DNA of 64,000 bases from Cordylochernes scorpioides (Eukaryota > Arthropoda > Arachnida > Pseudoscorpiones > Chernetidae). A program made the position numbers and the translations under genes. The stretch covers positions 68,338,754-68,402,753 of the forward strand of contig CP092875.1 in NCBI GenBank assembly GCA_030710605.1, read 5' to 3'. Under the pieces are notes generated by a model. It worked only from the letters and a program-made list of their open reading frames with translations, had not been told where the DNA came from and did no database searches. Positions 6,466 through 62,510 of the stretch are shown in pieces; position 1 is the stretch's first letter, and the number at the start of each line of letters is the position of its first letter.

Positions 6466-6780
6466 TGAAATTGAAATAATAATGATAATAAATTCACATT
6501 TTAATAAGTGTTATTGAATTAATTCTATCTCTATATAGTTAAACTAATATTAAGAAGGATTCAAAGAAGACATTAATAAATTTATCTATTTTATTGAAAA
6601 AGCATTTTTAAAGAAATAGTTTTTAAATATGATAAATTGTTTGTGTGATACTAATATGAAATAAGTTGCTACCAAAATAAAATTTAAAAAATTAATTGTT
6701 TTATTATAATTTTATTTCACAGAATAGCCTCGGTAGAAAAGTTAAATAATATATAATATAGATACAGGGAGAGATAGATT
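6466..6780. other. AT-rich spacer, nothing recognised
   Basis: This AT-rich DNA is conserved in position in units B (21150-21470) and C (44490-44815). I see no gene, RNA or mobile-element end. Confidence 0.5.
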
Positions 6781-7660
6781 GGTTAAAATCTTTTCATTAC
6801 AAGAGGCGGATCATTTGAACTTCTTTTGAAGTCGAAACCGATGAGAACGACCAGTTGACCTCCAGAATCACTTTGTGGGAAGCAAACATCTTGGGATGGT
6901 TGAAGGTAGCGGCAACTCCATATACTGTTTATAAGCGATCTATCGCATAGTTGGCAGACCTCGAGGCAGATTTTTCAGGATGTCGTGGCATGTAGTGTCC
7001 CGAAAGGTTATTGAGGCGTAGGTCGGCTGAGGAGATTAAGCGGAGGCGACACAAATGAAGGGAATGTCCAATCACGCCCTCAGCTTTGAAGAAAATATTT
7101 GTAGGAGAAGCTGAATCTAGATTCCTTCCCGCGAACAGGCTGTGGATGTGTGTGAGGGTCATTGTTAAATTCGCAGGACGACATTTTTTTTCCTCGTGCA
7201 CCACCCGGAAGTTGATGACCTGTAGTAGACGCTAGTAGAGGCTCCAGGAGCGCAGCCCGCGTTGAGCATCCTTAAATAAGAATATTTAATGGGAAGGCTC
7301 TTCAGACTTGAGACCGCGCAAGGAAGACAGCAGGTCTGGTGACCTGACGGGAGTTTTGTCATCTTGCAGACTTGTAGAAATAAAACTAACAAAGAGCAGA
7401 ATCAGGTTATTCAGATCAACGATGCTGTACAACTACGAAAGGCTTTAGGGACATGGTCATCTTGGAGGAAACTCTTGGCTTTGAAACGGCGATGATATCC
7501 TTGAGTCGGTCTCTGAAAATGTCGATCATAGCAGCCATTGCCACAAAGTTTTCTCGGCGATCTTCAGTCTGTTTTCCCTAATCTACCCAGCATCTACCAC
7601 CAAAATGTAACATAGAAATTGGGACAGGCAACTTAAGAATCACACGGGTCACAAGATTCA
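6780..7660 (-). pseudogene. LTR-element-like remnant with gag-like start, unit A
   Basis: Read on the minus strand, the right edge shows a TTACA-type LTR end followed by a primer-binding-like TGGTGGTAGATGCTGGG (about 7580-7605), then an open start AMAAMIDIFRDRLKDI (about 7500-7550). The same order is seen in the TRIM at 28007-28687. Downstream open stretches (6929-7204, 7165-7392) are interrupted, and I could not identify protease, RT or a matching second LTR. Copies at 21470-22310 and 44815-45690 are broken in the same way. I infer a decayed non-autonomous LTR element; a diverged gene fragment is the alternative. Confidence 0.4.
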
Positions 7661-7839: not shown

Positions 7840-8045
7840 CGATCAAAATTTTATATATTTATATAAAAAAAGCCTACCTAGATTTGTTGAAGAAAAAAAA
7901 AACATTTTTTTATCTAACATATCGAGGTAAGCTTTTTTTATATAAATATATTTGCTATAGTTTCAAAAATAGAGCTATCCATAAATTAATATTTAATTAA
8001 GATGGCATATATTTTGATCTAATATATGCCTTTTTAATTAATTAT
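7840..8045. repeat. Two adjacent AT-rich inverted repeats
   Basis: 7845-7955 pairs a 'tatatttatataaaaaaagc' arm with its reverse complement about 80 bp later. 7990-8040 pairs ttaattaag/ggcatata with tatatgcctttttaatt. Both recur in units B (22535-22730) and C (51065-51255), and a related 'ggcatatattgga' hairpin lies at 15055-15130. They are MITE-like or foldback remnants without coding. Confidence 0.6.
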
Positions 8046-8291: not shown

Positions 8292-8500
8292 AAATAAATT
8301 TACTGGCAATGCGCTTCTTTTAAATATCATCAAATATTATCTCTGCAGACCTTACTGCAATGATATGAGTTATTGAATGAGAGGGTTCACTACTGATGAG
8401 CCAAACCCTCTCATTCAATAACTCATATCATTGCAGTAAGGTCTGTAGAGATAATATTTGATGATATTTAAAAGAAGCGCATTGGCCGTAAATTTATAAA
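8292..8500. repeat. Near-perfect palindrome with about 81-bp arms, unit A
   Basis: The left arm (8305-8385) and right arm (8406-8487) are reverse complements with one or two mismatches. The 20-nt loop is ttcactactgatgagccaaa. The inner stem gagaggg/ccctctc and the loop match the second hairpin of the hammerhead-like motif at 25850-25915, but the first hairpin (GAAA side) is missing. Copies: 22981-23184 and 51505-51711. Confidence 0.85.
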
Positions 8501-22310: not shown

Positions 22311-22980
22311 AACTTCAGAATTACACGGTCACAAGATTCACATAAAAAAAGGTTAAGGAATAGTCACCAATATGTATATTATGGAGAATCTATTTGTGTA
22401 GTTGAGTCATATAATTGAAATCATAAATGAATATCTTCAATCTTTTTATTTTAATCATTTTCAACGTTTCAGCCACTTGCCCTCCTCAGGAAAACTCTAC
22501 TCGTATATGCTATTTCGTTTCAAAAAACGATCAGAATTTTATATATTTATATAAAAAAGCCAACCAAGATTTGTTAAAGAAAAAAGAACAGTTTTTTCTT
22601 TAACATATCGAGGTATGCTCTTTTTATATAAATATATTTGCTATTGTTTCGAAAATAAAGCTATCCATGAATAAATATTTAATTAAAAGGGCATAAATTT
22701 TGATATGATATATGCCTTTTTAATTAAATATTTTTAATTGTGTTCACTTTGTATTTAAATTCTGAGTAGACTAATATTTTAAAGAGCGTGGAGCGTGTAC
22801 TCCATACTCAATAAATAATAAAAAAATAATTCAATATTAATGAATAAAATTTAAATATATCTTGACAGAGGGGTAAAATATAAAAGTGGTTGGAAACACT
22901 GGAAAAATATAAAAAGTTGAAGATATTCATTTATTAGTAAATTAAATTTAATTGCCATCTATCGTTAGAATTTTACACAA

Positions 22981-23184
22981 ATAAATTTACTGGCAATGCG
23001 CTTCTTTTAAATATCATCAAATAATATCTCTACAGACCTTACTGCAATGATATGAGTTATTGAATGAGAGGGTTCACTACTGATGAGCCAAGCCCTCTCA
23101 TTCAATAGCTCATATCATTGCAGTAAGGTCTGTAGAGATAATATTTGATGCTATTTAAAAGAAGCGCATTGGCAGTTAATTTAT
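22981..23184. repeat. Palindrome with about 80-bp arms, unit B
   Basis: Counterpart of 8292-8500 with the loop ttcactactgatgagccaag. Confidence 0.85.
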
Positions 23185-23214
23185 ATAAATTTATTTATAT
23201 TTAAATCAAATATA

Positions 23215-23360
23215 CACAGGTTGGACCATAAGACCCGAAACTTTTTATTTTTTATTAAAATTTAAAGGCAAACTAAAATTGAAACTAAAATTATTTCAAT
23301 CTAGTTTGCCTCAATTTTTAACAAAAATAAAAGGGTTCAGGACTTATTGGCCAAAATGTA
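23215..23360. mobile_element. MITE, unit B copy
   Basis: Counterpart of 8530-8690 with a shortened right arm. Confidence 0.6.
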
Positions 23361-23449
23361 TCATTTGAACCTCTAAAATTAGTTTAATTTATATAGGGAT
23401 AGAATTAAATCAACAAAAAAGGTTTAACCCTCAAATTTGTTCAGTACTT

Positions 23450-23675
23450 CATTAGGTATATTTATTCAGAGTCCCATCGTAAATGCTGGGATACCACAAG
23501 ATAAAGTAGAGCAAGCAGTTGGCATGCTGTTGATGAAAATCATGGCCAGCTTAGAGTCAGCACACGTCCCAGTCCACCGAATCAATAGGGCCCAGGGAAA
23601 GGTCACAAGCCAGGCCAAAGGATCTATGGGTTCAGGGGGGAGGCCACAGACTAGTCCTCTGAGGCTATGGGGCTA
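23450..23675 (-). repeat. Right long inverted repeat of satellite block, unit B
   Basis: Counterpart of 8770-8995. The open plus frame is 23437-23676. Confidence 0.55.
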
Positions 23676-23759
23676 ACTTACAATTGTTGGGGCAGTGGAA
23701 TCATAATTATAGACATAATTAATAGCATTTGTTATCAAAAAGAGGCTTCAGGTTCTATC

Positions 23760-23925
23760 TGTCCAGGAAAGGAATCGCAAGAGAGGTGGTATACAACCCC
23801 ACCCCCCTCCTGGAGGGCTCCCACCCACGCCCCTACAGAGTGGAGACCACACCCTCAAAAAGGAGAGTTTCTAAGTATCCTATTCTACTGACTCCCCCTG
23901 CTCTCCCTTCCTGGTCATGACATAG
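23760..23925. mobile_element. GC-rich segment with inverted ends, unit B
   Basis: Counterpart of 9070-9235. The left end is decayed (caggaaaggaat). Confidence 0.4.
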
Positions 23926-24695
23926 GAATCCAACATTATCCATTGATAGCAGTTTAATCTGAAATGGGCTTTTTGAACTTTGTCATATTTGCACCACATT
24001 TTCAGTTATCATATTACTTCTGCTCAGTGCAACAGGTATTCTTTTACCTTATTTCTCAATATAGAAAACGGAGGTCTAACTTGATCTACTCACATTTCGC
24101 AAAGAGTAGCGTTCAAGGTCCACCAATCTTCTTCAAATAATAGGGATTGTTGAGAACGACTTATATGGTTGCGTAAGCCAAAGTGCCCCAACACCAGCTT
24201 ATATTTTGCCATGTTTTGAAATTTGGTTTGCACAACCAATATCTTACCAGTGTTATGTGGCAATCAAATTTCAAAAGGGGTTTCTAATTTTACATTCCTG
24301 TGAAAGATCTTATGAATGTGAGGATAGTGTAATGATATTCCAGTGGTCTAAAACCTGCCAATGACTTCAGGAATTATTTTCCATTCATTGATATGATGAA
24401 GAAGAGAAAATAAATCTCTTAAAAGATCCATTACTAAAAATTCTAACTATTAAGTAGTAGTAAAATTGTAAATAACTGCATCAAGAAAATAAAATATTTG
24501 GTAATTTGATTAATTCTCGCTCAGCTATGATTTTTGTTCATTCTATCATTATCGTTAAATCACAGAATTCTTTGATTTTTTTTTCTGAGCACCGAATACG
24601 TGACCAAACCACCTCTTGTGAAAATCCTCCCAATATCGTCAATTTCAAGCACATATTGATCAAGTTGGAATGATAAATGATAAATTCTGTATTAC

Positions 24696-24765
24696 CGCAG
24701 TTAGGAAAACTTCCTCTTCTGGAGCCGCACTTTCACTTTGGAGGGGAAGGTCAGGAGCAGCCAAC
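24696..24765 (-). CDS. Candidate 70-nt internal exon, unit B copy
   Basis: The acceptor ends ttttttcag and the donor is GTAATA. The open frame reads LAAPDLPLQSESAAPEEEVF and then LTA. About 70-130 bp further upstream on the minus strand (24836-24905) there is an open text VVVVVPNEEPEMSPCISIT followed by a GTAAAT donor. Against the unit C copy its two differences are silent in that frame, but its phase does not join cleanly to this exon. Confidence 0.4.
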
Positions 24766-25063
24766 CTGAAAAAAAAAAAGAGTTCACTTAAAATGACATT
24801 TATAAATAGTATTCACTGAGTATAAATTTACGACTGCTGTGATAGAGATGCATGGAGACATCTCTGGCTCTTCATTGGGCACGACAACAACAACTGAGTA
24901 CAAATCTAATAAAGCTTCAAAGAATTGTGTAAAACTATATTTAATAACTGTACACATTACATAGTTAAGATCCCAATGTGTCCAGAATATATTGAATCAA
25001 AGTTATGAGAATTATGAATATTGAAGATAGAGGTTGCCTGGCCGGCATTTTATATTTCTTTTT

Positions 25064-25160
25064 AAAAAATAGACACTACGGCTAAGTTTTATTTTCTTGG
25101 AATATTTTGTTGGAACATTGATAAAATAAAACTTCAACTGGCCGAAGTGTCTATTTTTTT
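25064..25160. mobile_element. Small MITE with tagacact ends, unit B
   Basis: The ends aaaaaatagacactacggc and gccgaagtgtctatttttt form an inverted repeat with the inner taagttttatttt/aaaataaaact pairing. The unit C copy (53585-53692) keeps a longer central palindrome around gttggaacattga that this copy has partly lost. Confidence 0.75.
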
Positions 25161-25362
25161 AAAGATAATTATGAACGTCTAATTTTCCAAAGTAGATAAT
25201 CAACTATATATACATACAACCCATATAGAAATATAGATGGATGGAAATTTTGCCGAGAGGATAGTGTTCTATAGAAGCATAGGACGCCTCTCCCGTCAAA
25301 ATAAACGTCTAAACTAGACCCCATCTGATTTGTCCTAGCCATTTTGCCATATAAACATCTCA

Positions 25363-25749
25363 TTGGCGCATTGTGAAGATTCCATTAGACAATTTTCAAT
25401 TAAAATAATGTTATTGATATCTTATCAAAACATGCAAAGTCTGTACTATTTAAAAAGATATTTATATATATACATGATACTATGTACAATGTATATGGCG
25501 CCTCTGCAAACGCTGCAGAGTTTGGTGGAGAATCACCAGCAGATCTCCAGTGACAGCACGTATTTCGCTATCTACGAAGTAAAGCTAGATTGCGTGCTTC
25601 GCCACTGGAGAGATGGTGATGGCGTGGTCCTCGAGATCAACTGGAGAGATCTAGGACTGCAGGATTGGCGGCCTGCCGATGATTCCATTAGATCCCTTGT
25701 GGATCCCAATATGGATTTGAGAAACTTTATGTATAATATGATGCACTAG
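25363..25749 (+). CDS. Unrecognised open frame, duplicated
   Basis: The part from about 25495 is GC-richer than its surroundings and reads as plausible protein (for example LRHWRDGDGVVLEINWRDLG). The upstream 40 codons are AT-rich and probably not coding. In the unit C copy (54038-54289) the tryptophan codon of RHWRD is TGA, and most other differences are replacement changes, so the two copies show no sign of purifying selection. No domain recognised; it may be an exon or retroelement fragment. Confidence 0.25.
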   Translation: MAHCEDSIRQFSIKIMLLISYQNMQSLYYLKRYLYIYMILCTMYMAPLQTLQSLVENHQQISSDSTYFAIYEVKLDCVLRHWRDGDGVVLEINWRDLGLQDWRPADDSIRSLVDPNMDLRNFMYNMMH

Positions 25750-25849
25750 CGCGCCATCTGTTATCAAATTTCAAAACTATTTTAAAGGCGTAAGATTATT
25801 TTCGATATTAAACAATTTCTACTGCCCTTACTGCAATGGAAAAATTAAT

Positions 25850-25915
25850 GAGAGGGCCTGGCTCATCAGTGGTGAACCCTCTCAGCGGTTTCGCCAGTTT
25901 AATCTACCATACCGC
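25850..25915 (-). ncRNA. Hammerhead-like core with swapped strand order, copy 1
   Basis: In the minus-strand RNA the order is GCGG-U-A, UGGU, AGAUUAAA, CUGGC, GAAA, CCGC, a linker with GAGAGGG, ACCA, CUGAUGA, GCCAG, then CCCUCUC. All hammerhead core bases are present: CUGAUGA, GAAA, an NUH triplet (GUA), G10.1-C11.1 and A15.1-U16.1. Three stems pair exactly next to them: stem I ACCA/UGGU, stem II GCCAG/CUGGC, stem III CCGC/GCGG. The strands are connected in the opposite cyclic order to normal type I, II or III hammerheads. Two hairpins (GCGG/CCGC and GAGAGGG/CCCUCUC) would present the core strands in their loops. Cleavage activity is inferred, not shown. Confidence 0.5.
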
Positions 25916-26180
25916 TGTTATATTGCATTTTTGGAACTTCTTTTTATAGTGATACTGTTGATAGACTCTTTGAATGGGTATTTTAGAAGAACTATGGACC
26001 GATATAAGAAACAATTTGATATTTGCGGAAGAGCGATTGCTCGAAGCATATTAATTATTTATAAATGTATGTAATTCTACTGTCCTCAAAGCTTATGTCC
26101 ATAGTTCTTCTAAAATACCCATTCAAAGAGTCTATCAACAGTATCACTATAAAAGGAAGTTCCAAAAATGCAATATAACA

Positions 26181-26246
26181 GCGGTATGGTAGATTAAACT
26201 GGCGGAACCGCTGAGAGGGTTCACCACTGATAAGCCAGGCCCTCTC
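26181..26246 (+). ncRNA. Hammerhead-like core, mutated copy in right arm
   Basis: This is the inverted partner of 25850-25915. The GAAA box reads GGAA and CUGAUGA reads CUGAUAA. Both are bases that the hammerhead core does not tolerate, so this copy should be inactive. Stems I-III are still complementary. Confidence 0.5.
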
Positions 26247-26576
26247 ATTAATTTTTCCATTGCAGTAAGGGCAGTAGAAATTGTTTAATATCGAAAAGAA
26301 TCTTACGCCTTTAAAATAGTTTTGAATTTTGAAACTTTATGTATATTATTAGGGAATAACTATGTAATTTTATAGTAAATATTTGGATGACCATTTCTTT
26401 GATTAATCCAGGTTCTTGTTATAACCTGTGTTTGTATTTCTGTTTTGGGGGAATGATAAAATATAAGGTTGTCCCGAAAGTTCGTGTTTTTCTTAAAATG
26501 TTGTTTTTATTATTACTTAGCGAATAATATTATTACAGCGAATACATAATACATCGACTTTCTATTCCCATAACTA

Positions 26577-26825
26577 TATTGTAAGATTATAAACTCAAAA
26601 GGAGAGCTTCTTCTTTATAACATGTCTATTTCGCTAGCTACAATAATTACAGATAGTTACAAATTTGTATATATATCTTGGCTCTCAATGTACGTCTATA
26701 TAATTTCACGCATCTCACATCACACCTTGTCTTTACGCCCGGTGAAGAATAATGTCGTTCGAAAGCTAGCAAAATAAACATGTTTTATAGAAGAAGCTCC
26801 TTTTGAGTTTATAATCTTACAATAT
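26577..26825. mobile_element. Foldback nested in the mariner-type element
   Basis: The left arm (26577-26638) and right arm (26764-26825) are about 62 bp and almost perfectly complementary, including aagattataaactcaaaagg and cttcttctttataacatg. The loop is about 125 bp. No coding. Confidence 0.8.
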
Positions 26826-26875
26826 AATACATAATACTATTACTTTATACATAATATAAAATATAAAAATAACTC

Positions 26876-27180
26876 CGCCTTTTCCGGTCCCAAACCCGGA
26901 TAAAAAAGGAGGGGGAGCAGTAACAAGCTCATTAAAAAACCTGGGCTCAGTTGGCCCGGCTGATAGTACCCTGTAAGGGCTCCTGATCCAGGGATACAGG
27001 GTGTGTCTGTACTCCATGTTAGGAGCGGTTGTACATGGCGTGTGTTCCTCATGTCAGAGGCCACCATTTCATATTGGAGCTAAGTCGGCCTGCCATTGAG
27101 TAGTGCTCCCAGTCTTAATGACAAATGCAGACGCATTCTACTTCACCAACACCATCAAAAGTCTCAACCTCTACTAGCTT
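26876..27180 (-). other. GC-rich interspersed-repeat fragment
   Basis: On the minus strand this reads through ggagcccttacagggtacta and cccgggtttgggaccgg-type text. It resembles the untranslated part of a LINE, but I cannot assign a clade. Open frames (26817-27067) are conserved in length in unit C (55358-55608) without recognisable domains. Confidence 0.35.
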
Positions 27181-27306
27181 GATACCCTAATATGATTGAG
27201 TGGAGATAAGAAAGAAGAAGACATAATATAAAGATATTATACATAACAGCAAGTAATATTGGTATTTCCAGTTTTTGCAAGTGTTAACGAATTTTTGAGA
27301 CAACCT

Positions 27307-28002
27307 TGTAATACCAATAATTGATACATCGATTAAAGAATCATACCTCTCGATCAATACTCATATCCTCAGATTTCTTTTGAATTTTTTAAGAATCTTC
27401 TCAAGGCATTGGAAGGCTATGGTTATTTGGGCTTCTTGAATGCTAGAATTGCTCCTTCTTGAGAACGTCGTCTCCCAAGTTTACGACTTTCTTATATCTT
27501 TTACCTAGCAACCTTTGTAAGCAATAGTCAAAATTTTGCAAATTCTAAAATTCTATACCATTTTATTATTCATAAAAAAGTTTTATATAATATTCAACAA
27601 ATTCAATTCATTCACCTATTGCCTATATTATAAATAGGATCATCATTGGAAATCTTCAAATTCTAATTTATCGACAGTTAATCAATAAAAAAATTAATTT
27701 AATAGAATTGAAATACTTTTAAAAAAATTTTTTTTTATGTTTCTATAAAAATAGTTTTTTTATGTTATCAAATTTGTTTGATTGATTTTACATTCCAAAG
27801 GCGTCAAATTGATTCAATGGTTGAGGTCATCATAACGTGAAAAAAATAAATGATAATTAAAATTTGAATTCAAGGACTCTTTTCTACAAAAATAAAAATT
27901 TCACTCTTGTATTTGGGTTATCTAAAACGATGGTCGATCATCAGACTAATCATTTATTGGCTAAAATTTGAAAAATCAATACAAAGCATTAACACGCCAT
28001 CT
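27307..28002. other. AT-rich DNA, nothing recognised
   Basis: No gene. The stretch is repeated collinearly at 55848-56535. Confidence 0.5.
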
Positions 28003-28006
28003 ATAT

Positions 28007-28687
28007 TGCCATGTGGAAAATTAGAAAAGACAAACTCCAGTAAGACACAGTAATTTATTCAAGGCAAGAACAAACTAAGAAGGATAAATAAAAGATATGC
28101 AATAAGGTAGTTTACAGAGTAGGAAAAAATATATAAACATAAAAATGAACTCTGTTAATAAAATAATAAATACTTCGTTACATAGCTCCTTTCCTATGGG
28201 AGCTGTGACCCACAGCTTGCAATTATTGTAGTTACTGACATGGATCTGACGTGCTTCTGCCAAGGATTCCATCGAAGTCTTGGAACTTTGTCCCTATCAT
28301 CTTTGCGTCCTTTTTCTTGCGGCGTGAAGAGCGGCTTTGTCGTCGTATCGTCTATAGGGACATCGTCATCTTGGAGGGAAGTCTTGGCTTTGACACGGCG
28401 GTGGAATCCTGGAGCCACTATCTGAAAATGTAGATCACAGACCCATGGCCTCTAGGTCTTCTCGGCGATCTTCAGTTTGTCTTCCCTAACTTACCCAGTA
28501 TCTCCACCAAAATGCCACGTGGAAAATTAGAAAAGACAAACTCCAGTAGAACAAAGTAATTTATTCAAGGCAAGAACAAACTAAGAAGGATAAATAAAAG
28601 ATAAGCAATGAGATAGTTACAGAGTAGGAAAAATATCTAAACATAAAAATGATACTCTGTTAATAAAATAATAAATACTTCGTTACA
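28007..28687 (-). mobile_element. TRIM-like miniature LTR retrotransposon, unit B
   Basis: Direct repeats at 28007-28182 and 28513-28687 (about 175 bp) begin TG and end CA and are flanked by ATAT on both sides (28003-28006, 28688-28691). On the minus strand the LTR is followed within 3 nt by a primer-binding-like TGGTGGAGATACTGGG, and a purine-rich aggaaaggag precedes the second LTR, which sets the orientation. The 330-bp interior has one open frame with the text RVKAKTSLQDDDVPIDDTTT, related to the start of the remnant at 6780-7660, and no pol. It is therefore non-autonomous. Duplicate: 56540-57219. Confidence 0.75.
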
Positions 28688-28746
28688 ATATACAACAAAT
28701 GGAGACATTAAGACGCGAATTATTCTTTTCATAAATAAATCAAACT

Positions 28747-28960
28747 TCTACTGTCCTTACTGCGATGATAAAATATTGGGAGGGCTTGGCTCATCAGTGG
28801 TCAACCCTCCCAGCGGTTTCGCCAATTTAATCTACCAGACCGCCTCTTTAGAGCTCTAATACTGCATTGGATGATTTTGATTAAATATTCTACACTGAAG
28901 AGTGGAATCTTAGAAATGGTATATAAGAAAACTATGAACATAAGCTTTTAGGACAGTAGA
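28747..28960 (-). mobile_element. 214-bp element carrying the hammerhead-like core
   Basis: The ends are a perfect 10-bp inverted repeat, tctactgtcc and ggacagtaga. There is no coding sequence. The hammerhead-like motif sits near one end (28778-28843), about 95 nt from the other conserved landmark cataagctttt. It is related to the elements that make up the foldback at 25764-26331. Duplicate: 57278-57491. Mechanism of mobility unknown; a MITE or a ribozyme-bearing SINE are possible. Confidence 0.6.
28778..28843 (-). ncRNA. Hammerhead-like core with swapped strand order, copy 2
   Basis: The arrangement is the same as at 25850-25915, with the cleavage triplet GUC. Stem II is GCCAA/UUGGC instead of GCCAG/CUGGC, and the outer hairpin is GGGAGGG/CCCUCCC instead of GAGAGGG/CCCUCUC. 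Both are paired compensatory changes. CUGAUGA, GAAA, stem I (ACCA/UGGU) and stem III (CCGC/GCGG) are unchanged. Of six differences from copy 1, four form two compensatory pairs, one is the tolerated H17 position (A to C), and one lies in a linker. Confidence 0.55.
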
Positions 28961-28984
28961 ATTATATTCAAATATAATTAAATA

Positions 28985-29813
28985 GATTGCTTTGTATTAA
29001 TATACATCATAAGAAACATTGTGCCAAAATATTTATTGCAAATGAGGAGGGGGGGGGGGGTAATAAAATTTTTTAATTTGGAACTTTTCGCGGAAAAATC
29101 TTTGTCCTTTATTCTGATATTTGAGACAGATAATATGAATTTTCTTCTGATTCCCTTCTCATTTTTCAACACCTACTTGACTATTTCCTTCAATTTAACT
29201 GGCTATAATTCAACAGCGACTTTAATGCAACCTAAAATTATGATCCGTTGTGGTGTTGAATTGAAAAAGTTTGGCTGAAGTAGTTCTCCAGTAAGAAGAC
29301 ATCTCTCCTTCTCTCTAAAGGGAAACCTTGGCATTTCCACTAGGTGTTGTCTTTTATAGAGAGGTAGTTCAACTCGATATACACCATGCTGACCTATAAT
29401 TACATAGCTATGAACCATGAACCTTGTGGGATATGTAAGAAAACAATCTCCATAAGACTAAACTTACAAGCCTAAATCTAAAGTCGCCTAATGCATGACT
29501 TCATCACTGATTAAAATAAGTATATTCTCATGCTAAAATTTGAGATGCAAAAGATTGGATGAGCCGACAATGCAATTTGCTGAATATATTCTTCTTTTAT
29601 TCAGAAAATTGATACGAAATTGGAATATAAAGATCAGATTAGTTAATGGCGGCTTAAGGAAACCTTGCGCATTGGTAATATATACCATTGATTTACTATG
29701 GAAGGCAGATTAGTTGTGTTTAGGGAACCTATAGACATAAGCGTATAGGTCCGTAGAGCTGCAAGCATATAATAAACGTTTGATAATAAGAATAAGAGAT
29801 TCTTCTTAGAGCT
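28985..29813. other. Shared non-coding stretch with a G-run
   Basis: A run of twelve G follows 'gagga' near 29050; it is shortened to five or six in unit C (57578). Short open frames on both strands (29021-29278, 29203-29418) recur in unit C without recognisable domains. Nothing else is seen. Confidence 0.4.
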
Positions 29814-29916: not shown

Positions 29917-32201
29917 ATTTACATCATATCGCCACGCTGTAAGATTCAAAGGAAAAACAGGGTAACGTGGTAAGATTCTTTAATGGAACATGACGAGCTT
30001 TCAGGCAGCAACTGCCCTTCTTCAGGTCTTATACAAGTGTAGACAAAGAAGTGCCATATTTATAAGCAAAAATATTTACATATATACGCGCAAGGAAATA
30101 AGGAATTTTACATACTGAAGATTGGAAAGGGGAATTTGCATATTTACAAATAAAACAAACTCTGTGTGAGAAATAGAGGCAAAAAAACGGAGATAAAAAT
30201 TAAACCTGAAGGCAAAACACGGAGATAAAAATTGAACCGAAAAATAACAATAAAACCCAGAACATATCAGCGAGTGAGGCCGTAAAATATTGTATATTGC
30301 GGTGGGAGATCAATCTTCCGGTTAAAACTGGGAGTACAGTTGGACACCAGTGCTTCCAGAACCAAGCGTTGGTACTTGTTTCCAATATCCCTGTATACAG
30401 AAATCGTATCGTCTAAATTGAAGGAATGGTCGAAATCTGCCATGTGTTGAAAAATGAGAGATTTTCGATCTTTGGAACGTATATTACGGTTGTGTTCGCG
30501 GATTCTAGTGGCGATGGTTCGACCAGTTTCACCAATGTAGCATTGCTCACAATCGTTGCATGATATTTTATAGATGCCGTTATTGAGGGATAGAGGGTTA
30601 AGTTTGATGGAGCTTTTTGTTATGGGGTGCCGTAAGGATGCTTCTAGGGAAGGCGAATTTTTGAAAAACGTGCGAATACCGAATTTTCGTAAAAATAACG
30701 CAATATCAGAGTTCGTGGTCGAAAAAGGAAGGACACAGACGTTTTTATACAGCGGAGGTGTAACTTTTTTGTGGTTCGGAACGTAAAAATGGCGGTCAAT
30801 AAAATTATGAGGGTAACCGGCGGATAAAAGATGGGTGTAAACGGTACGCTTCTCGATCGTTCTAAATAAGGCAAGGGAACAATGAGTATATACCCGTTTG
30901 GAGAGAGTTTTTACCGTGGTGATTTTGTGAGAAACCGGAGCATGTGATAAAAAATGTAAATAGGAGGGAGTGAAGTTAGGCTTGCGAAATACGGTGGTCT
31001 GAAAAGTGCCATTAGGGTTGATGACTAAAACGTCTAAAAACGGGATGCAATTAAAACAGGATGGGTTGTGAGTAAAACGGAGATCATGATGGTATGAGTT
31101 TAAAACTGTGAGTATAGGGAGATGGTCGGTATCACGATGGAGGCAAAAAATGTCGTCAACGTACCTCGACCACATCTCGATCCCCAAATGATTATGGGAA
31201 ACTAACCACCGGTCCAGATTAGACATAACAATCTCAGCTGCTATTGTGGAAAGAGGGCTGCCCATAGGGGAGCCTCTCATCTGTACAAAGAAACAGCCAT
31301 TGAATTCTAAAGCATTCATGTCAAGGCAGATGGTGAATAGATCCAAGATGGTTTTTTGATCATTACTAGGAAGAGTGGAAGAAGAAAGAAGTTGCTCTAG
31401 GCCATCTATGATCAGAGAATGCGGGAGGCACAGAAAGAGTGATGTCACGTCAAAAGTCGACATGGTGAGACCACGAGGTTGGGGGACACTCTTTAATCTT
31501 GTAAAAAATTCAGATGGATCCTGGACCGAGTAAAGATTATGAGTTTTGACCAGGGGTTTTAGAAGGCTAGAAAGGTATTTGGCTAGCTGTAAGGCGGGTG
31601 ACAGATGGTAAGCAACTATGGGTCTAAGGGGGACACTGGGCTTATGTGTTTTAGGTAGGCCATATATATATGGAACCCTAGAAAGATTGGAGGTAAACTG
31701 CTGGAACTGATCGGGAGTAATGCATTCGTTTCTTCTGAGCAATCTGAGTGATGATTTGTAGGCACCAGAAATAGCACAAACACGTTCAGGTGAAATCTCT
31801 TGGAAGGTATCGGAGTCTGAAAGGATATCAGACATTTTCTTCTTGTAATCATCAACTTTTAACACAACTACTTGTGAGCCCTTATCTGATTTAGTGATGA
31901 GGATATCATGATGGCTCTTGAGGGCTTTCAAGGAGGCAAGATCGCTCTTGACGGAATTGGAGCGAGATGAAGAACTCTTGTAAGCAGCAAGAAGTTTGTT
32001 GGCTATGGTAGAACGGATGTGATGTTTGTCTGTGTGGGACTGGTGCTGGAGGGAAGATTCAATACAGCTAATCGTGTATAAAAGATCAGGTTCATTGGGC
32101 AACCCAAAACTAAGGCCTTTCTCTAGTAGGGATATCTGCTTGTCTGAAAATACAATGTCGGTTAGGTTAACAATGGTATCTTCAGAGGGTTTCTTGGTTT
32201 C
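29917..32201 (-). mobile_element. Penelope-like retroelement, 5'-truncated
   Basis: This segment is absent from the equivalent place in unit C, where the retrozyme relic runs on uninterrupted (58382-58440). Its minus-strand 3' UTR contains ctgaagaagggcagttgctg followed by cctgaaagctcg, a hairpin text common near PLE ends. The 5' end stops inside the coding region near 32190. About 25 bp of the retrozyme target are missing and I see no clear target duplication. Confidence 0.8.
30267..32102 (-). CDS. Penelope-like RT with GIY-YIG endonuclease
   Basis: This protein copies its own RNA at a nicked chromosomal site, with a telomerase-related reverse transcriptase followed by a C-terminal GIY-YIG endonuclease. 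Visible landmarks are ITKSDKGSQVVVL near the RT start, YGLPKTHKP, RYVDDIF (catalytic Asp pair) near residue 318, RGSPMGSPLST, and GIYKISC...CYIGETGRT near residue 510-530. Length from the first Met is 611 residues. The frame stays open to 32201 with PLE-like text (VNLTDIVFS), so this Met is internal and the N-terminus is missing. The frame shows no stop or shift. There is no promoter, so it is probably not expressed as a working element. Confidence 0.9.
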   Translation of the reverse strand: MPNEPDLLYTISCIESSLQHQSHTDKHHIRSTIANKLLAAYKSSSSRSNSVKSDLASLKALKSHHDILITKSDKGSQVVVLKVDDYKKKMSDILSDSDTFQEISPERVCAISGAYKSSLRLLRRNECITPDQFQQFTSNLSRVPYIYGLPKTHKPSVPLRPIVAYHLSPALQLAKYLSSLLKPLVKTHNLYSVQDPSEFFTRLKSVPQPRGLTMSTFDVTSLFLCLPHSLIIDGLEQLLSSSTLPSNDQKTILDLFTICLDMNALEFNGCFFVQMRGSPMGSPLSTIAAEIVMSNLDRWLVSHNHLGIEMWSRYVDDIFCLHRDTDHLPILTVLNSYHHDLRFTHNPSCFNCIPFLDVLVINPNGTFQTTVFRKPNFTPSYLHFLSHAPVSHKITTVKTLSKRVYTHCSLALFRTIEKRTVYTHLLSAGYPHNFIDRHFYVPNHKKVTPPLYKNVCVLPFSTTNSDIALFLRKFGIRTFFKNSPSLEASLRHPITKSSIKLNPLSLNNGIYKISCNDCEQCYIGETGRTIATRIREHNRNIRSKDRKSLIFQHMADFDHSFNLDDTISVYRDIGNKYQRLVLEALVSNCTPSFNRKIDLPPQYTIFYGLTR

Positions 32202-36659: not shown

Positions 36660-37119
36660 ATTGAACAATTTCAACTGCCCTTACTGCAATGAAAAAATTA
36701 AAAGGAGGGCCTGGCTCATCAGTGGTGAACCCTTCCAATCGTACACGTCTATAATAGTTTCGAATATTCGTAACAGATGGTGCGCTATGCATCATAATAT
36801 AACTATAACATATATGTCAATAGAATTATTTTATAAAAATGAACTAGATATCTCACCTATTGAAATTGACAAAAACTGTGAAACTATTGGGTGTCCCTGC
36901 AAACTAGAAGATTTGGCTAGTGACAAACCCACACTACAACAACTTTGTTAAATTCGAACGCCCCATTTAGAGCCCAAGGTTTAATGTTAAGACAATTGTC
37001 AGTTCAGAGGGGACTCAGATTTTTTTATATTTATAAAGCAACTATGAAATCCTAAGAATTTAACCAAAAGGCGGTAATCTGGTAGAAGGTTTCTTAGAGT
37101 ACTCTAAACCGATTTGGAA

Positions 37120-37120: not shown

Positions 37121-37146
<26 letters not shown>
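37121..37146. repeat. TA microsatellite at left edge of retrozyme array
   Basis: About 12 TA units. The matching tract at 39560-39584 bounds the other side, and the undisturbed site in unit D has a single TA tract (62515-62534). Confidence 0.9.
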
Positions 37147-37153
<7 letters not shown>

Positions 37154-37347
37154 ACGAAAGAAAAAAATAAAAGATAAAAAGATCAGGTGTTGAAATCAAT
37201 ATTAAAAATGGCATATCCTGACCAGGAGCACATGTGCTTTTCAGAAGGCAGAGCGCCATCTGGTGGAACAGAAATCAACTATTCATTGATTTAGCCTGTT
37301 CCCTGATATTTGGCCAACCCAATTTCTTGATAAATCAAGAAAAGCCA

Positions 37348-37389
37348 TCCACGAACGCGTTTCGCGCTTTTGGCGCTCGTCAGCGTGGA
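37348..37389 (-). ncRNA. Type I hammerhead ribozyme, array copy 1
   Basis: The RNA order is UCCACG, CUGACGA, GCGC-CAAAA-GCGC, GAAA, CGCGUU, CGUGGA. Stem I is UCCACG/CGUGGA, extended outward by AGCC/GGCU after an internal loop. Stem III is only A-U and C-G with a 2-nt loop, but ACGCGU is self-complementary, so a dimer would form a full stem III. Predicted cleavage after GUU, between 37354 and 37353. Confidence 0.9.
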
Positions 37390-37697
37390 GTAGGCTGAAC
37401 CATTGCGACCAAAAAATAATTTTTGATCCCAATGGCTTCCTGAAAAACCAAGAAATGGGTATTTAAGGCCAAACTTGCGTAAATACGCTTAGCACATTAA
37501 AAAACGAAAGAAAAAAATAAAAGATAAAAAGATCAGGTGTTGAAATCAATATTAAAAATGGCATATCCTGACCAGGAGCACATGTGCTTTTCAGAAGGCA
37601 GAGCGCCATCTGGTGGAACAGAAATCAACTATTCATTGATTTAGCCTGTTCCCTGATATTTGGCCAACCCAATTTCTTGATAAATCAAGAAAAGCCA

Positions 37698-37739
37698 TCC
37701 ACGAACGCGTTTCGCGCTTTTGGCGCTCGTCAGCGTGGA
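37698..37739 (-). ncRNA. Type I hammerhead ribozyme, array copy 2
   Basis: Identical motif to copy 1. Predicted cleavage between 37704 and 37703, 350 nt from the previous site. Confidence 0.9.
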
Positions 37740-38048
37740 GTAGGCTGAACCATTGCGACCAAAAAATAATTTTTGATCCCAATGGCTTCCTGAAAAACCA
37801 AGAAATGGGTATTTAAGGCCAAACTTGCGTAAATACGCTTAGCACATTAAAAAACGAAAGAAAAAAAATAAAAGATAAAAAGATCAGGTGTTGAAATCAA
37901 TATTAAAAATGGCATAGCCTGACCAGGAGCACATGTGCTTTTCAGAAGGCAGAGCGCCATCTGGTGGAACAGAAATCAACTATTCATTGATTTAGCCTGT
38001 TCCCTGATATTTGGCCAACCCAATTTCTTGATAAATCAAGAAAAGCCA

Positions 38049-38090
38049 TCCACGAACGCGTTTCGCGCTTTTGGCGCTCGTCAGCGTGGA
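38049..38090 (-). ncRNA. Type I hammerhead ribozyme, array copy 3
   Basis: Identical motif. Predicted cleavage between 38055 and 38054, 351 nt from copy 2. Confidence 0.9.
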
Positions 38091-38320
38091 GTAGGCTGAA
38101 CCATTGCGACCAAAAAATAATTTTTGATCCCAATGGCTTCCTGAAAAACCAAGAAATTCGTTGATTTCAACACCTGATCTTTTTATCTTTTATTTTTTTT
38201 CTTTCGTTTTTTAATGTGCTAAGCGTATTTACGCAAGTTTGGCCTTAAATACCCATTTCTTGGTTTTTCAGGAAGCCATTGGGATCAAAAATTATTTTTG
38301 GTCGCAATGGTTCAGCCTAC

Positions 38321-38362
38321 TCCACGCTGACGAGCGCCAAAAGCGCGAAACGCGTTCGTGGA
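38321..38362 (+). ncRNA. Type I hammerhead ribozyme, array copy 4
   Basis: First plus-strand copy. CUGACGA at 38327-38333, GAAA at 38347-38350, predicted cleavage after 38356. Confidence 0.9.
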
Positions 38363-38670
38363 TGGCTTTTCTTGATTTATCAAGAAATTGGGTTGGCCAA
38401 ATATCAGGGAACAGGCTAAATCAATGAATAGTTGATTTCTGTTCCACCAGATGGCGCTCTGCCTTCTGAAAAGCACATGTGCTCCTGGTCAGGATATGCC
38501 ATTTTTAATATTGATTTCAACACCTGATCTTTTTATCTTTTATTTTTTTCTTTCGTTTTTTAATGTGCTAAGCGTATTTACGCAAGTTTGGCCTTAAATA
38601 CCCATTTCTTGGTTTTTCAGGAAGCCATTGGGATCAAAAATTATTTTTTGGTCGCAATGGTTCAGCCTAC

Positions 38671-38712
38671 TCCACGCTGACGAGCGCCAAAAGCGCGAAA
38701 CGCGTTCGTGGA
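38671..38712 (+). ncRNA. Type I hammerhead ribozyme, array copy 5
   Basis: Identical motif. Predicted cleavage after 38706. Confidence 0.9.
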
Positions 38713-39021
38713 TGGCTTTTCTTGATTTATCAAGAAATTGGGTTGGCCAAATATCAGGGAACAGGCTAAATCAATGAATAGTTGATTTCTGTTCCACCAG
38801 ATGGCGCTCTGCCTTCTGAAAAGCACATGTGCTCCTGGTCAGGATATGCCATTTTTAATATTGATTTCAACACCTGATCTTTTTATCTTTTATTTTTTTT
38901 CTTTCGTTTTTTAATGTGCTAAGCGTATTTACGCAAGTTTGGCCTTAAATACCCATTTCTTGGTTTTTCAGGAAGCCATTGGGATCAAAAATTATTTTTT
39001 GGTCGCAATGGTTCAGCCTAC

Positions 39022-39063
39022 TCCACGCTGACGAGCGCCAAAAGCGCGAAACGCGTTCGTGGA
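39022..39063 (+). ncRNA. Type I hammerhead ribozyme, array copy 6
   Basis: Identical motif. Predicted cleavage after 39057. Confidence 0.9.
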
Positions 39064-39372
39064 TGGCTTTTCTTGATTTATCAAGAAATTGGGTTGGCCA
39101 AATATCAGGGAACAGGCTAAATCAATGAATAGTTGATTTCTGTTCCACCAGATGGCGCTCTGCCTTCTGAAAAGCACATGTGCTCCTGGTCAGGATATGC
39201 CATTTTTAATATTGATTTCAACACCTGATCTTTTTATCTTTTATTTTTTTTCTTTCGTTTTTTAATGTGCTAAGCGTATTTACGCAAGTTTGGCCTTAAA
39301 TACCCATTTCTTGGTTTTTCAGGAAGCCATTGGGATCAAAAATTATTTTTTGGTCGCAATGGTTCAGCCTAC

Positions 39373-39414
39373 TCCACGCTGACGAGCGCCAAAAGCGCGA
39401 AACGCGTTCGTGGA
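39373..39414 (+). ncRNA. Type I hammerhead ribozyme, array copy 7
   Basis: Identical motif. Predicted cleavage after 39408. Confidence 0.9.
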
Positions 39415-39559
39415 TGGCTTTTCTTGATTTATCAAGAAATTGGGTTGGCCAAATATCAGGGAACAGGCTAAATCAATGAATAGTTGATTTCTGTTCCACC
39501 AGATGGCGCTCTGCCTTCTGAAAAGCACATGTGCTCCTGGTCAGGATATGCCATTTTTA

Positions 39560-39584
39560 ATATATATATATATATATATATATT
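39560..39584. repeat. TA microsatellite at right edge of array
   Basis: TA tract between the retrozyme array and the LINE fragment. Confidence 0.9.
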
Positions 39585-50909: not shown

Positions 50910-50913
50910 ATAT

Positions 50914-51500
50914 TATGGAGAATCTATTTGTGTAGTTGAGTCATATAAATAAAATCATATAAATGAATATCTTCAATCTTTTTATATTTCATTTTTAACG
51001 TTTCAGCCACTTGCCCTCTTTAGGGAAACTCTATTTGTTATTTTGTGTCAAAAAGCGATCAAAATTTTATATATTTATATAAAAAAGCCTACCTTGATTC
51101 GTTAAAGAAAAAAAAACATTTTTTTCTTTAACATATCGAGGTATGTTCTTTTTATATAAATATATTTGCTATTGTTCCGAAAATAAAGCTATCCCTTAAT
51201 AAATATTTAATTAAAAAGGCATATATTTTGATCTAATATATGCCCTTTTATTTAATTATTTTCAATTGTGTTTACTTTGTATTTAAATTCTGAGTAGACT
51301 AATATTTTAAAGAGCGTGGAGCGTGTACTCCATACTCAATAAATAATAAAAAATAATTCAATATTAATGAATAAAATTTAAATATATCTGGACAGAGGGG
51401 TAAAATATAAAAGTGGTTGGAAACACTGGAAAAATATAAAAAGTTGAAGATATTCATTTATTAGTAAATTAAATTTAATTGCCATCTATCGTTAGAATTT
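50914..51500. other. Shared spacer right of gypsy insertion
   Basis: Counterpart of 7705-8290, including the two AT-rich inverted repeats (51065-51255). No gene. Confidence 0.5.
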
Positions 51501-51504
51501 TACA

Positions 51505-51711
51505 CAAATAAATTTACTGGCAATGCGCTTCTTTTAAATATCATCAAATATTATCTCTACAGACCTTACTGCAATGATATGAGTTATTGAATGAGAGGGT
51601 TCACTACTGATGAGCCAAGCCCTCTCATTCAATAGCTCATATCATTGCAGTAAGGTCTGTAGAGATAATATTTGATGATATTTAAAAGAAGCGCATTGGC
51701 AGTTAATTTAT
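51505..51711. repeat. Palindrome with about 80-bp arms, unit C
   Basis: Counterpart of 8292-8500, with the gagaggg/ccctctc inner stem and tgatgagcc in the loop. Confidence 0.85.
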
Positions 51712-51745
51712 ATAAATTTATTTATATTTAAATCAAATATACACA

Positions 51746-51890
51746 GGTTGGACCATAAGACCCGAAACTTTTTATTTTTTATTAAAATTTAAAGGCAAAC
51801 TAAAATTGAAACTAAAAATATTTCAATCTAGTTTGCCTCAATTTTTAACAAAAATAAAAGGGTTCAGGACTTATTGGCCAAAATGTATCA
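51746..51890. mobile_element. MITE, unit C copy
   Basis: Counterpart of 8530-8690, closest to the unit B copy. Confidence 0.6.
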
Positions 51891-51979
51891 TTTGAACCTC
51901 TAAAATTAGTTTAATTTATATAGGGATAGAATTAAATCAACAAAAAAGGTTTAACCCTCAAATTTGTTCAGTACTTCAT

Positions 51980-52203
51980 TAGGTATATTTATTCAGAGTC
52001 CCATCGTAAATGCTGGGATACCACAAGATAAAGTAGAGCAAGCAGTTGGCATGCTGTTGATGAAAATCATGGCCAGCTTAGAGTCAGCACACGTCCCAGT
52101 CCACCGAATCAATAGGGCCCAAGGAAAGGTCACAAGCCAGGCCAAAGGATCTATGGGTTCAGGGGGGAGGACACAGACTAGTCCTCTGAGGCTATGGGGC
52201 TAA
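51980..52203 (-). repeat. Right long inverted repeat of satellite block, unit C
   Basis: Counterpart of 8770-8995. The open plus frame is 51964-52203. Confidence 0.55.
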
Positions 52204-52284
52204 CTTACAATTGTTAGCGCAGTGGAATCGTAATTATAGACATAATTAATAGCATTTGTTCTCAAAAAGAGGCTTCAGGCGCTA

Positions 52285-52450
52285 TCTGTCCAGGAAGGGA
52301 GTAGCGAGAGAGGTGGTATACAATCCCACCCCCCTCCTGGAGGGCTCCCACCCACGCCCCTCCAGAGTGGAGACCACACCCTCAAAAAGGAGAGTTTCTA
52401 AGCATCCTATCCTACTGACTCCCCCTGCTCTCCCTTCATGGTCATGACAT
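52285..52450. mobile_element. GC-rich segment with inverted ends, unit C
   Basis: Counterpart of 9070-9235. The left end caggaagggag is intact; the right end is ctcccttcatg. Confidence 0.4.
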
Positions 52451-53222: not shown

Positions 53223-53292
53223 CGCAGTTAGGAAAACTTCCTCTTCTGGAGCCGCACCTTCACTTTCGAGGGGAAGGTCAGGAGCAGCCAAC
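53223..53292 (-). CDS. Candidate 70-nt internal exon, unit C copy
   Basis: Same splice signals as the other two copies. The open frame reads LAAPDLPLESEGAAPEEEVF and then LTA. It differs from the unit B copy by a Gln-to-Glu change and a Ser-to-Gly change. Confidence 0.4.
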
Positions 53293-53584
53293 CTGAAAAA
53301 AAAGAGTTCATTAAAATGGCATTTATAAATAGTATTAACTGAGTACAAATTTACGACTGCTGTGATAGAGATGCATGGGGACATCTCAGGCTCTTCATTG
53401 GGCACGACAACAACAACTGAGTACAAATCTAATAAAGGTTCGAAGAATTGTGTAAAACTATATTTAATAACTGTATACATTACATAGTTAAGATCCCAAT
53501 GTGTCCAGAATATATTGAATCAAAGTTATGAGAATTATGAATATTGAAGATAGAGGTTGCCTGGCCGGCATTTCATATTTCTTT

Positions 53585-54289: not shown

Positions 54290-54390
54290 GCGCGCCATCT
54301 GTTATCAAAATTCAAAACTATTTTAAAGGCGTAAGATTATTTTCGATATTAAACAATTTCTACTGCCCTTACTGCAATGGAAAAATTATT

Positions 54391-54456
54391 GAGAGGGCCT
54401 GGCTCATCAGTGGTGAACCCTCTCAGCGGTTTCGCCAGTTTAATCTACCATACCGC
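54391..54456 (-). ncRNA. Hammerhead-like core with swapped order, unit C copy
   Basis: Identical in all core and stem positions to 25850-25915. Confidence 0.5.
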
Positions 54457-54721
54457 TGTTATATTGCATATTTGGAACTTCTTTTTATAGTGATACTGTT
54501 GATAGACTCTTTGAATGGGTATTTTAGAAGAACTATGGACCGATATAAGAAACAATTTGATATTTGCGGAAGAGCGATTGCTCGAAGCATATTAATTATT
54601 TATAAATGTATGTAATTCTACTGTCCTCAAAGCTTATGTCCATAGTTCTTCTAAAATACCCATTCAAAGAGTCTATCAACAGTATCACTATAAAAGGAAG
54701 TTCCAAAAATGCAATATAACA

Positions 54722-54787
54722 TCGGTATGGTAGATTAAACTGGCGGAACCGCTGAGAGGGTTCACCACTGATAAGCCAGGCCCTCTC
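54722..54787 (+). ncRNA. Hammerhead-like core, degenerate, unit C right arm
   Basis: It has the same GGAA and CUGAUAA changes as 26181-26246, and one more mismatch in stem III (tcgg in place of gcgg). Predicted inactive. Confidence 0.45.
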
Positions 54788-55006
54788 ATTAATTTTTCCA
54801 TTGCAGTAAGGGCAGTAGAAATTGTTTAATATCGAAAAGAATCTTACGCCTTTAAAATAGTTTTGAATTTTGAAACTTTATGTATATTATTAGGGAATAA
54901 CTATGTAATTTTATAGTAAATATTTGGATGACCATTTCTTTGATTAATCCAGGTTCTTGTTATAACCTGTGTTTGTATTTCTGTTTTGGGGGAATGATAA
55001 AATATA

Positions 55007-57219: not shown

Positions 57220-57277
57220 ATATATAACAAATGGAGACATTAAGACGCGAATTATTCTTTTCATAAATAAATCAAAC

Positions 57278-57491
57278 TCTACTGTCCTTACTGCGATGAT
57301 AAAATATTGGGAGGGCTTGGCTCATCAGTGGTCAACTCTCCCAGCGGTTTCGCCAATTTAATCTACCAGACCGCCTCTTTAGAGCTCTAATACTGTATTG
57401 GATAATTTTGATTAAATATTCTACACTGAAGAGTGGAATCTTAGAAATGGTATATAAGAAAACTATGAACATAAGCTTTTAGGACAGTAGA
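57278..57491 (-). mobile_element. 214-bp element with hammerhead-like core, unit C
   Basis: Duplicate of 28747-28960 with the same 10-bp inverted ends. Confidence 0.6.
57309..57374 (-). ncRNA. Hammerhead-like core with swapped order, unit C copy of type 2
   Basis: As 28778-28843, except for one base in the outer hairpin (ctctccc) that breaks a pair there. The core and stems I-III are intact. Confidence 0.5.
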
Positions 57492-62049: not shown

Positions 62050-62510
62050 TGAAAATTGAACAATTTCAACTGCCCTTACTGCAATGAAAAAATTAAAAGG
62101 AGGGCCTGGCTCATCAGTGGTGAACCCTCCCAATCGTACACGTCTATAATAGTTTCGAATATTCATAACAGATGGTGCGCTATGCATTATAATATAACTA
62201 TAACATATATGTCAATATAATTATTTTTTAAAAATTAACTAGATATCTCACCTATTGAAATTGACAAAAACTGTGAAACTATTGGGTGTCCCTGCAAACT
62301 AGAAGATTTGGCTAGTGACAAACCCACACTACAACAACTTTGTTAAATTCGAACGCCCCATTTAGAGCCCAAGGTTTAATGTTAAGACAATTGTCAGTTC
62401 AGAGAGGACTCAGATTTTTTTATATTTATAAAGCAACTATGAAATCCTAAAGAATTTAACAAAAAGGCGGTTATCTGGTAGAAGGTTTCTTAGAGTACTC
62501 TAAACCGATT
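62050..62510. other. Shared block with half of the hammerhead-like motif, unit D start
   Basis: Counterpart of 36660-37120. The minus-strand hairpin GGGAGGGUUCACCACUGAUG is present without a GAAA partner. The ISPIEID-like fragment is at 62240-62345, in which the first Met-containing part is frameshifted. Confidence 0.5.

Follow-up and report, generated by a model that had tools for sequence, protein, structure and literature searches.

What is a complete hammerhead core, with its strands in an unfamiliar order, doing in the genome of a pseudoscorpion, and what carries it there? The question is raised by positions 25850-25915 of a 64-kb stretch of Cordylochernes scorpioides DNA (the window), where the core runs as NUH strand, GAAA strand and CUGAUGA strand, with a fourth helix added. 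A sequence-only reading had described a complete hammerhead core here, and re-reading its boxes and three stems on the minus strand bore this out. The NUH, GAAA, CUGAUGA wiring, with an outer helix tying stem I to stem II, is likewise seen in the sequence and found by a descriptor. The same reading held that only three permutations of the hammerhead had been described; this claim to novelty fails because the order is the ‘type SGC’ already described by Eckert et al. (2023; PMC10085705). The order itself is therefore known, and what is new is its place, in an abundant element of C. scorpioides. The best explanation, to which a probability of about 0.8 is assigned, is a type-SGC hammerhead riding on a non-autonomous, Penelope-type and retrozyme-like unit of ~372 bp that has reached high copy number in this animal. 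The predicted ribozyme probably cuts the RNA copies of the element into units.

On the minus strand, 25916-25850 reads AGCGG-U-A-UGGU, AGAUUAAA, CUGGC-GAAA-CCGCU and GAGAGGG-UUC-ACCA-CUGAUGA-GCCAG-G-CCCUCUC (Table 1). The conserved core is abutted by stem I (4 bp), stem II (5 bp) and stem III (5 bp), and the motif at 25850-25916 contains every element by which a hammerhead is recognized (CUGANGA, GAAA, NUH and abutting stems I-III). In standard hammerhead numbering, C3-A9, G12-A14, A15.1-U16.1 and H17 are complete. Hammerhead rules predict cleavage after 25910, i.e. at the 25910/25909 junction. The motif also has what distinguishes type SGC, namely the S-G-C block order with crossing stems and a helix linking stems I and II (helix IV, 96.6% paired and with two-sided changes at three pairs).

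The blocks S, G and C are the strand names of Eckert et al. (2023), whose non-circularly permuted type SGC comprises 583 sequences, 407 of them HRIMA-1 and 176 variants (PMC10085705). According to that paper, type SGC self-cleaves biochemically at the predicted site, mutation of the G in CUGAnGA abolishes cleavage, and each of the four stems can be rescued by compensatory mutations. The pseudoscorpion motif shares the S-G-C order, the core nucleotides, the crossing stems I-III and the helix between stems I and II. It differs in several dimensions: stem III and the extra helix are 0-44 nt apart in the published sequences and 0 nt apart here, the linker between stems I and II is typically 3 nt there and 8 nt here, and stem I has five perfectly conserved pairs in HRIMA-1 whereas it has 4 bp here and 3 in subfamily C (PMC10085705). 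The direct join of stem III to helix IV is, in the words of Eckert et al., ‘not obviously compatible’ with the crystal structure. Given these differences, the pseudoscorpion copies would be useful for a structure. The setting differs as well, since the published type-SGC sequences are environmental and none is reported there from the genome of a known organism (PMC10085705), whereas here it lies in animal genomic DNA inside a retroelement. No later placement of type SGC in a genome was found in the titles and openings of the open-licence PubMed Central literature, which counts as weak evidence.

Table 1. Features of the window (positions 1-64,000; strand as read in the assembly orientation).
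Feature	Coordinates	Strand	Basis
Stem III, 5' strand AGCGG	25912..25916	-	sequence, descriptor, pair counts
U16.1 and H17 (UA)	25910..25911	-	sequence
Stem I, 5' strand UGGU	25906..25909	-	sequence; compensatory G-C to A-U change in L014 and L061
Linker between stems I and II, AGAUUAAA, 8 nt	25898..25905	-	sequence
Stem II, 5' strand CUGGC	25893..25897	-	sequence; C-G/U-A exchange (19 and 29 of 50 distinct rows)
GAAA box (G12 A13 A14 A15.1)	25889..25892	-	sequence
Stem III, 3' strand CCGCU	25884..25888	-	sequence
Outer helix IV, 5' strand GAGAGGG, immediately 3' of stem III	25877..25883	-	sequence, covarying pairs
Stem I, 3' strand ACCA	25870..25873	-	sequence
CUGAUGA box	25863..25869	-	sequence
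Stem II, 3' strand GCCAG	25858..25862	-	sequence
Outer helix IV, 3' strand CCCUCUC	25850..25856	-	sequence
Inverted second SGC copy, two core substitutions (GAAA to GGAA, CUGAUGA to CUGAUAA), predicted inactive	26174..26247	+	sequence
Subfamily B copy, intact core, H17 = C, stem II UUGGC/GCCAA, helix IV GGGAGGG/CCCUCCC	28777..28850	-	
Copy within the segmental duplication of 22376-29138, intact core	54390..54463	-	
Copy within the segmental duplication, substituted core	54715..54788	+	
Subfamily B copy within the segmental duplication, intact core, one broken helix IV pair	57308..57381	-	
Decayed copy, 39.6 bits	16084..16150	-	
CUGAUGA block alone (subfamily C sequence), centre of a palindrome with 92-bp arms	23058..23100	+	
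Related C-block-only copies	8371..8413, 51585..51627	+	
Related C-block-only copies	36702..36756, 62097..62151	-	
Direct arm, unit U1-331 (372 bp per unit in tandem copies), tailless end	26002..26332	+	
Inverted arm, U96-331, facing outward	25764..25999	-	
Tail closing the inverted arm, 26 nt, TAACAGATGGCGCGCTAGTGCATCAT	25738..25763	-	
Flank repeat, 5' side, GAAACTTTATGTATA	25721..25735	+	
Flank repeat, 3' side, same 15 letters	26331..26345	+	
Penelope-like ORF (RVT_1 reverse transcriptase and GIY-YIG)	30267..32102	-	

The repeat unit to which the motif belongs measures about 372 bp and falls into three or more diverged subfamilies, represented by 25916-25850 (A), 28844-28778 (B) and, on the minus strand of locus L014, 1921-1993 (C). 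Its abundance was estimated with R1, a covariance model built on stem III and helix IV alone, in a 250-kb sample of the 2.62-Gb assembly (25 segments of 10 kb each, placed at round coordinates and spread over 10 of the 24 contigs). The sample yielded 13 matches at E < 1e-3, eight of them above 85 bits. Seven of the eight best-scoring copies pass a tolerant check of core and stems, and the strict descriptor passes four or five. By simple proportion, the 13 matches correspond to about 136,000 copies (Poisson 95% interval 72,000-233,000, narrower than the true uncertainty because matches cluster, with three in locus L052), the seven that pass to about 73,000 (29,000-151,000) and four to about 42,000. 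The sample thus suggests roughly 10^5 copies in the genome. Searches of the genome with subfamily A and subfamily B as queries scored 40 of 849 and 40 of 3130 first-look candidates, respectively, so that these totals are barely informative.

Several of these copies lie in the window itself (Table 1). The segmental duplication that bears SGC loci joins 22376-29138 to 50910-57663 (~6.8 kb, 95.8% identity). At 8371-8413, 23058-23100 and 51585-51627 the CUGAUGA block of subfamily C stands without the NUH and GAAA strands; the first two of these blocks are centred in near-perfect palindromes (arms of 94 and 92 nt), and the third is a near-identical copy.

Under the favoured reading, the unit would be transcribed, and its three strands would fold into a core whose stems I, II and III cross one another and are held by helix IV between I and II. 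The RNA would then cleave itself 3' of the NUH triplet. A Penelope-type reverse transcriptase/GIY-YIG endonuclease would copy transcripts of tandem units, or a unit that had been circularised, starting at two fixed sites 26 nt apart and leaving partially tandem and inverted-arm insertions with short target duplications. The core, its pairing and compensatory changes, the unit, its tandem and inverted layout, the tail and the flank repeats are read in the DNA; transcription, cleavage, circularisation of the RNA and the identity of the helper are what we infer.

The alternative that survives best holds that the source elements once had a working type-SGC hammerhead and that the present copies are passengers, with an anatomy that the enzyme produces without need of the ribozyme. 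It is not fully exclusive of the best explanation and is judged unlikely. It can be assessed in alignment A2, whose 74 rows (50 distinct) come from the window and from 56 of the 82 fetched loci, with a cut-off at E = 1e-13; two rows are the window's own locus (L010), which leaves 72. Among these 72 aligned genomic copies, 12 have a broken core and stems fail in five more, and decayed or partial matches fall below the alignment cut-off (for instance L041 818, L044, L046, L048, L029 89, window 16084 and the C-block-only copies). A similar message comes from the anole Penelope-like element (PLE), for which Frangieh et al. (2024; PMC11167929) report unprocessed RNA as the dominant insertion substrate and no reads that began or ended at the predicted HHR site; ribozyme cleavage may thus not be needed for insertion. 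Against mere passengers, all catalytic positions are kept in 60 of the 72 copies, and the stems as well in 55, a share biased upward by the E cut-off and because loci were mostly fetched as best matches to subfamily A or B. The high pass rate among the best-scoring copies of the 250-kb sample points the same way. Moreover, subfamilies A and B agree at 58 of 66 ribozyme positions but at 99 of 148 ungapped flank positions, so that the ribozyme is the better conserved part; A was represented here by the core-substituted copy of the right arm. H17 is A in 41 of the 72 copies and C in 30, and is missing in one.

That the permuted core is paired as proposed finds some support in compensatory changes. 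Because A2 was fitted only to stem III and helix IV, stems I and II serve as an independent test; pair counts merge identical rows. With all the crossing stems included, standard pairs fill 96.6% of cells compared with 94.4% in shuffles (0 of 500 as high), and 42 cells are changed on both sides compared with 16.9 (0 of 500 reach 42). Two-sided changes fall at six pairs, a count reached by 6 of 500 shuffles. When the pairing is slid by 1-3 columns, at most 54.8% of cells are paired and at most four are two-sided. Stem I contributes one pair (G-C to A-U, in L014 and L061) and stem II two, one of them an exchange between U-A in 29 rows and C-G in 19 and the other a G-C to A-U change in L056, whereas changes in stem III are one-sided only. 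In an alignment of seven sequences these measures also lean towards the crossing structure, less strongly. The number of further pair types is no higher than in shuffles (332 of 500 reach it). Uncompensated changes in stems I or II occur in L029 and L030 (one pair each), L060 (one per stem) and the second L035 copy (two pairs). The compensatory changes support the crossing four-helix structure, though as few independent events, because subfamilies share them (stem I in one subfamily, stem II in two, stem III in none).

The same alignment bears on the notion that an ordinary fold-back of the RNA or DNA into two hairpins, one at stem III and one at helix IV, plus a local GGUUCA/UGAGCC stem, is the conserved feature and that the hammerhead boxes are incidental. 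Nested minimum-energy folds do contain both hairpins, and palindromes with the C block alone exist. However, covariation in GGUUCA/UGAGCC is not clearly beyond that of shuffles (58 of 500 reach its score, and one cell is changed on both sides). Although 93% of its cells pair, 10 of 50 rows lack an intact C52-G62 pair. Stems I and II cross the hairpins, and their two-sided changes also speak against such a fold, which is considered very improbable.

The anatomy of the insertions was traced by mapping the 331-bp unit of the window onto the window and loci L010-L062. In the window, a direct and an inverted arm are bounded by a 15-letter flank repeat, of which 26331-26332 are the element's own last 2 bp, so that the target duplication proper is about 13 bp. 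The tail sequence of the SGC unit is TAACAGATGGCGC. Partial direct tandems, consisting of a truncated unit, the same 41-bp join and the start of the next unit, are found in L011, L025, L031, L033, L034 and L035, and their period is 372 bp. L035 holds two ribozymes in the same orientation 372 bp apart, the first of which passes the check while the second fails in stem I. It is the one direct pair at one-unit spacing among the 19 neighbouring match pairs listed, and because its second ribozyme fails, no two intact direct copies able to release a monomer were found among these pairs.

Arms end at one of two fixed points, either after GAATTTTGA or, some 26 nt further on, after TAACAGATGGCGCGCTAGTGCATCA(T). 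In 14 of 15 outward inverted pairs one arm is tailed and the other tailless; for distinct insertions the figure is 11 of 12, a locus fetched twice and duplicated loci each being counted once. In the fifteenth pair, L019, one arm is tailless and the other stops inside the tail after TAACAGAT. In the 11 distinct insertions of mixed type, 6-15 letters (mean 11.2) are common to the two flanks, with 8-15 letters in 10 of them, compared with a mean of 5.4 and at least eight letters in 5 of 110 mismatched flank pairings; shared letters may include a few of the element's own end letters, in the control likewise. This count omits L010 (same locus), the second window copy, L028 (whose 3' flank is that of L016), L021 (flank too short) and L019 (both arms classed as tailless).

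Judged from these sequences, the insertions look Penelope-like. As presented by Frangieh et al. (2024; PMC11167929), PLEs with pLTRs and hammerheads show partial tandems and a hammerhead in the repeat, and a tail may lie between their two fixed end points; all of these features have counterparts here, including a pLTR-like unit in partial direct tandems. The differences are the SGC order, a tail of 26 nt instead of the published 30-40 bp, and the lack of an ORF for reverse transcriptase and GIY-YIG inside the element. The 372-bp unit is too short for such an ORF, and it is thus classed as a PLE-type insertion and not as an autonomous PLE. The same study describes how a Penelope-like enzyme, once purified, cleaves both strands of DNA and extends each of them, with reverse transcription beginning at two neighbouring internal sites, which matches the PLE tail (PMC11167929). 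The two fixed ends seen here, one per opposed arm, agree closely with these two start sites.

The mapped ends also decide against a MITE or fold-back DNA transposon that carries the motif by accident. Such an origin was considered because of a 12-bp inverted repeat inside the unit (TTCTACTGTCCT) and because the insertions are palindromic. It was rejected once the real element ends had been mapped, which lie outside the TTCTACTGTCCT repeat, and it is given even slighter credence than the two-hairpin fold. Arms are truncated at varying inner points and tandem joins fall at a fixed place, one arm is tailed and the other tailless, and the length of the shared flank varies, a pattern that is Penelope-like and atypical for a transposon with terminal inverted repeats.

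A descriptor that requires CUGANGA, GAAA, NUH and 4-bp stems I, II and III within a span of at most 130 nt, and that permits all six strand orders, was used to search for the motif. In the 64-kb window it gives four matches, all four in the NUH-GAAA-CUGAUGA order, which represent two diverged loci and their segmental duplicates. In 100 dinucleotide-shuffled whole windows it gives one match summed over all, likewise in SGC order. The 250 kb sampled elsewhere in the genome contain four matches, all SGC and none in the other five orders, and five, again all SGC, once a stem I of 3 bp is allowed. The boxes and the 4-bp stems are short, but a chance assembly of hammerhead boxes can be dismissed as a negligible prospect, since one match per 100 shuffled windows stands against four in the window and four in the sample, in one order only, and two-sided changes recur across subfamilies.

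Standard models give no sign of this family. No Rfam family reaches its gathering score anywhere in the 64-kb window, and no Rfam hammerhead family matches 25780-26000 at E up to 10. This miss is expected because the crossing strand order cannot align to nested models, and it serves as a warning that nested covariance models such as those of Rfam missed all window copies at gathering score. Outside the genome, scans for the SGC pattern in viral contigs gave no match in one case and one match in another, and contigs of prokaryote genomes gave eight. These nine matches were rejected as relatives and are read as chance, because none of them fits the descriptor in any strand order. A BLAST search of the SGC family against phages gave no match.

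The preferred reading, a type-SGC hammerhead on a Penelope-type unit, invites comparison with animal retrozymes. As described by Cervera and de la Pena (2020; PMC7229834), these consist of tandem units of 150-450 bp with type I hammerheads and are reported as circular RNAs, with PLEs as suspected helpers and, according to a section heading, up to 120 000 copies in axolotl. The pseudoscorpion unit resembles them in being a short, non-coding, partly tandem hammerhead unit of 372 bp, in its very many copies and in the PLEs that reside in the same genome. It differs in that type I order and circular RNA are documented there (PMC7229834), whereas the order here is SGC and the unit is known from sequence. 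Owing to its SGC order, the unit is filed as a variant that would work like a retrozyme and not as a strict member of the group.

Type SGC was previously represented by environmental sequences of unknown origin, active in vitro but lacking a host or a role. A named animal and a Penelope-type, high-copy element provide a host, a plausible function and a large natural library for testing the crossing structure. The finding suggests that retrozyme-like elements are not bound to one strand order, and it offers a mechanism for the non-circular permutation of an RNA, namely insertion that truncates, inverts and re-joins units. A bolder proposal, which is put forward tentatively and leans towards the doubtful, is that in a dominant lineage of animal retrozymes, of which a single genome may hold tens of thousands of active copies, non-circularly permuted hammerheads might be the ribozymes that do the processing, and that the permutation was born of such Penelope-type insertion, which can reorder the three strands. 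If this were true, animal retroelements would hold relatives of the environmental type-SGC RNAs or be where these arose.

Which enzyme might mobilize the unit is suggested by its neighbours. The Penelope-like ORF of the window (Table 1) is a possible helper of the same general type. A tblastn search with this ORF found no complete PLE ORF joined to an SGC unit; elsewhere it found fragments only, in L058, L050 and L012, the last of which lies about 0.7 kb from an SGC unit. Beyond the ORF, positions 37146-39563 hold an HH9-like array of 351-bp units, direct and inverted, with classical hammerheads (seven Rfam Hammerhead_HH9 matches of 31.3 bits, under the gathering score of 52); it is read as a retrozyme or PLE repeat of conventional type, alongside the permuted one. 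Both have direct and inverted units with AGATGGCGC towards the unit end, whereas the array has the classical strand order and otherwise lacks significant similarity to the SGC unit. The nine letters of AGATGGCGC common to the two unit ends are not significant alone (E 0.19), and for this reason the helper is only a suggestion. The motif follows CACC or AAC near the ends of both types of hammerhead element, at 33858, 37261-39501 and 58584 and in the SGC tails at 25759 and 54300. It resembles a CTCF-type binding sequence.

Other small ribozymes may be present as well. A twister-like core lies at 26866-26917 on the plus strand and is duplicated at about 55407-55458 (twister-P1, 33.7 bits against a gathering score of 67.2; E 5.1e-06 in a 181-base search), with its central CCGGTCCCAANCCCGG block intact. 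Elsewhere in the genome, locus L049 has twister-P1 matches on the minus strand at 6652-6706, 7257-7311 and 7856-7913 (53.3, 53.3 and 36.8 bits, below the same gathering score of 67.2). Lying on one strand ~600 bp apart, these may mark a tandem element that carries twister ribozymes; Tandem Repeats Finder, whose upper limit is a period of 500, reports nothing at L049. The 64-kb window further contains other large duplications and encodes a Tc1-type transposase.
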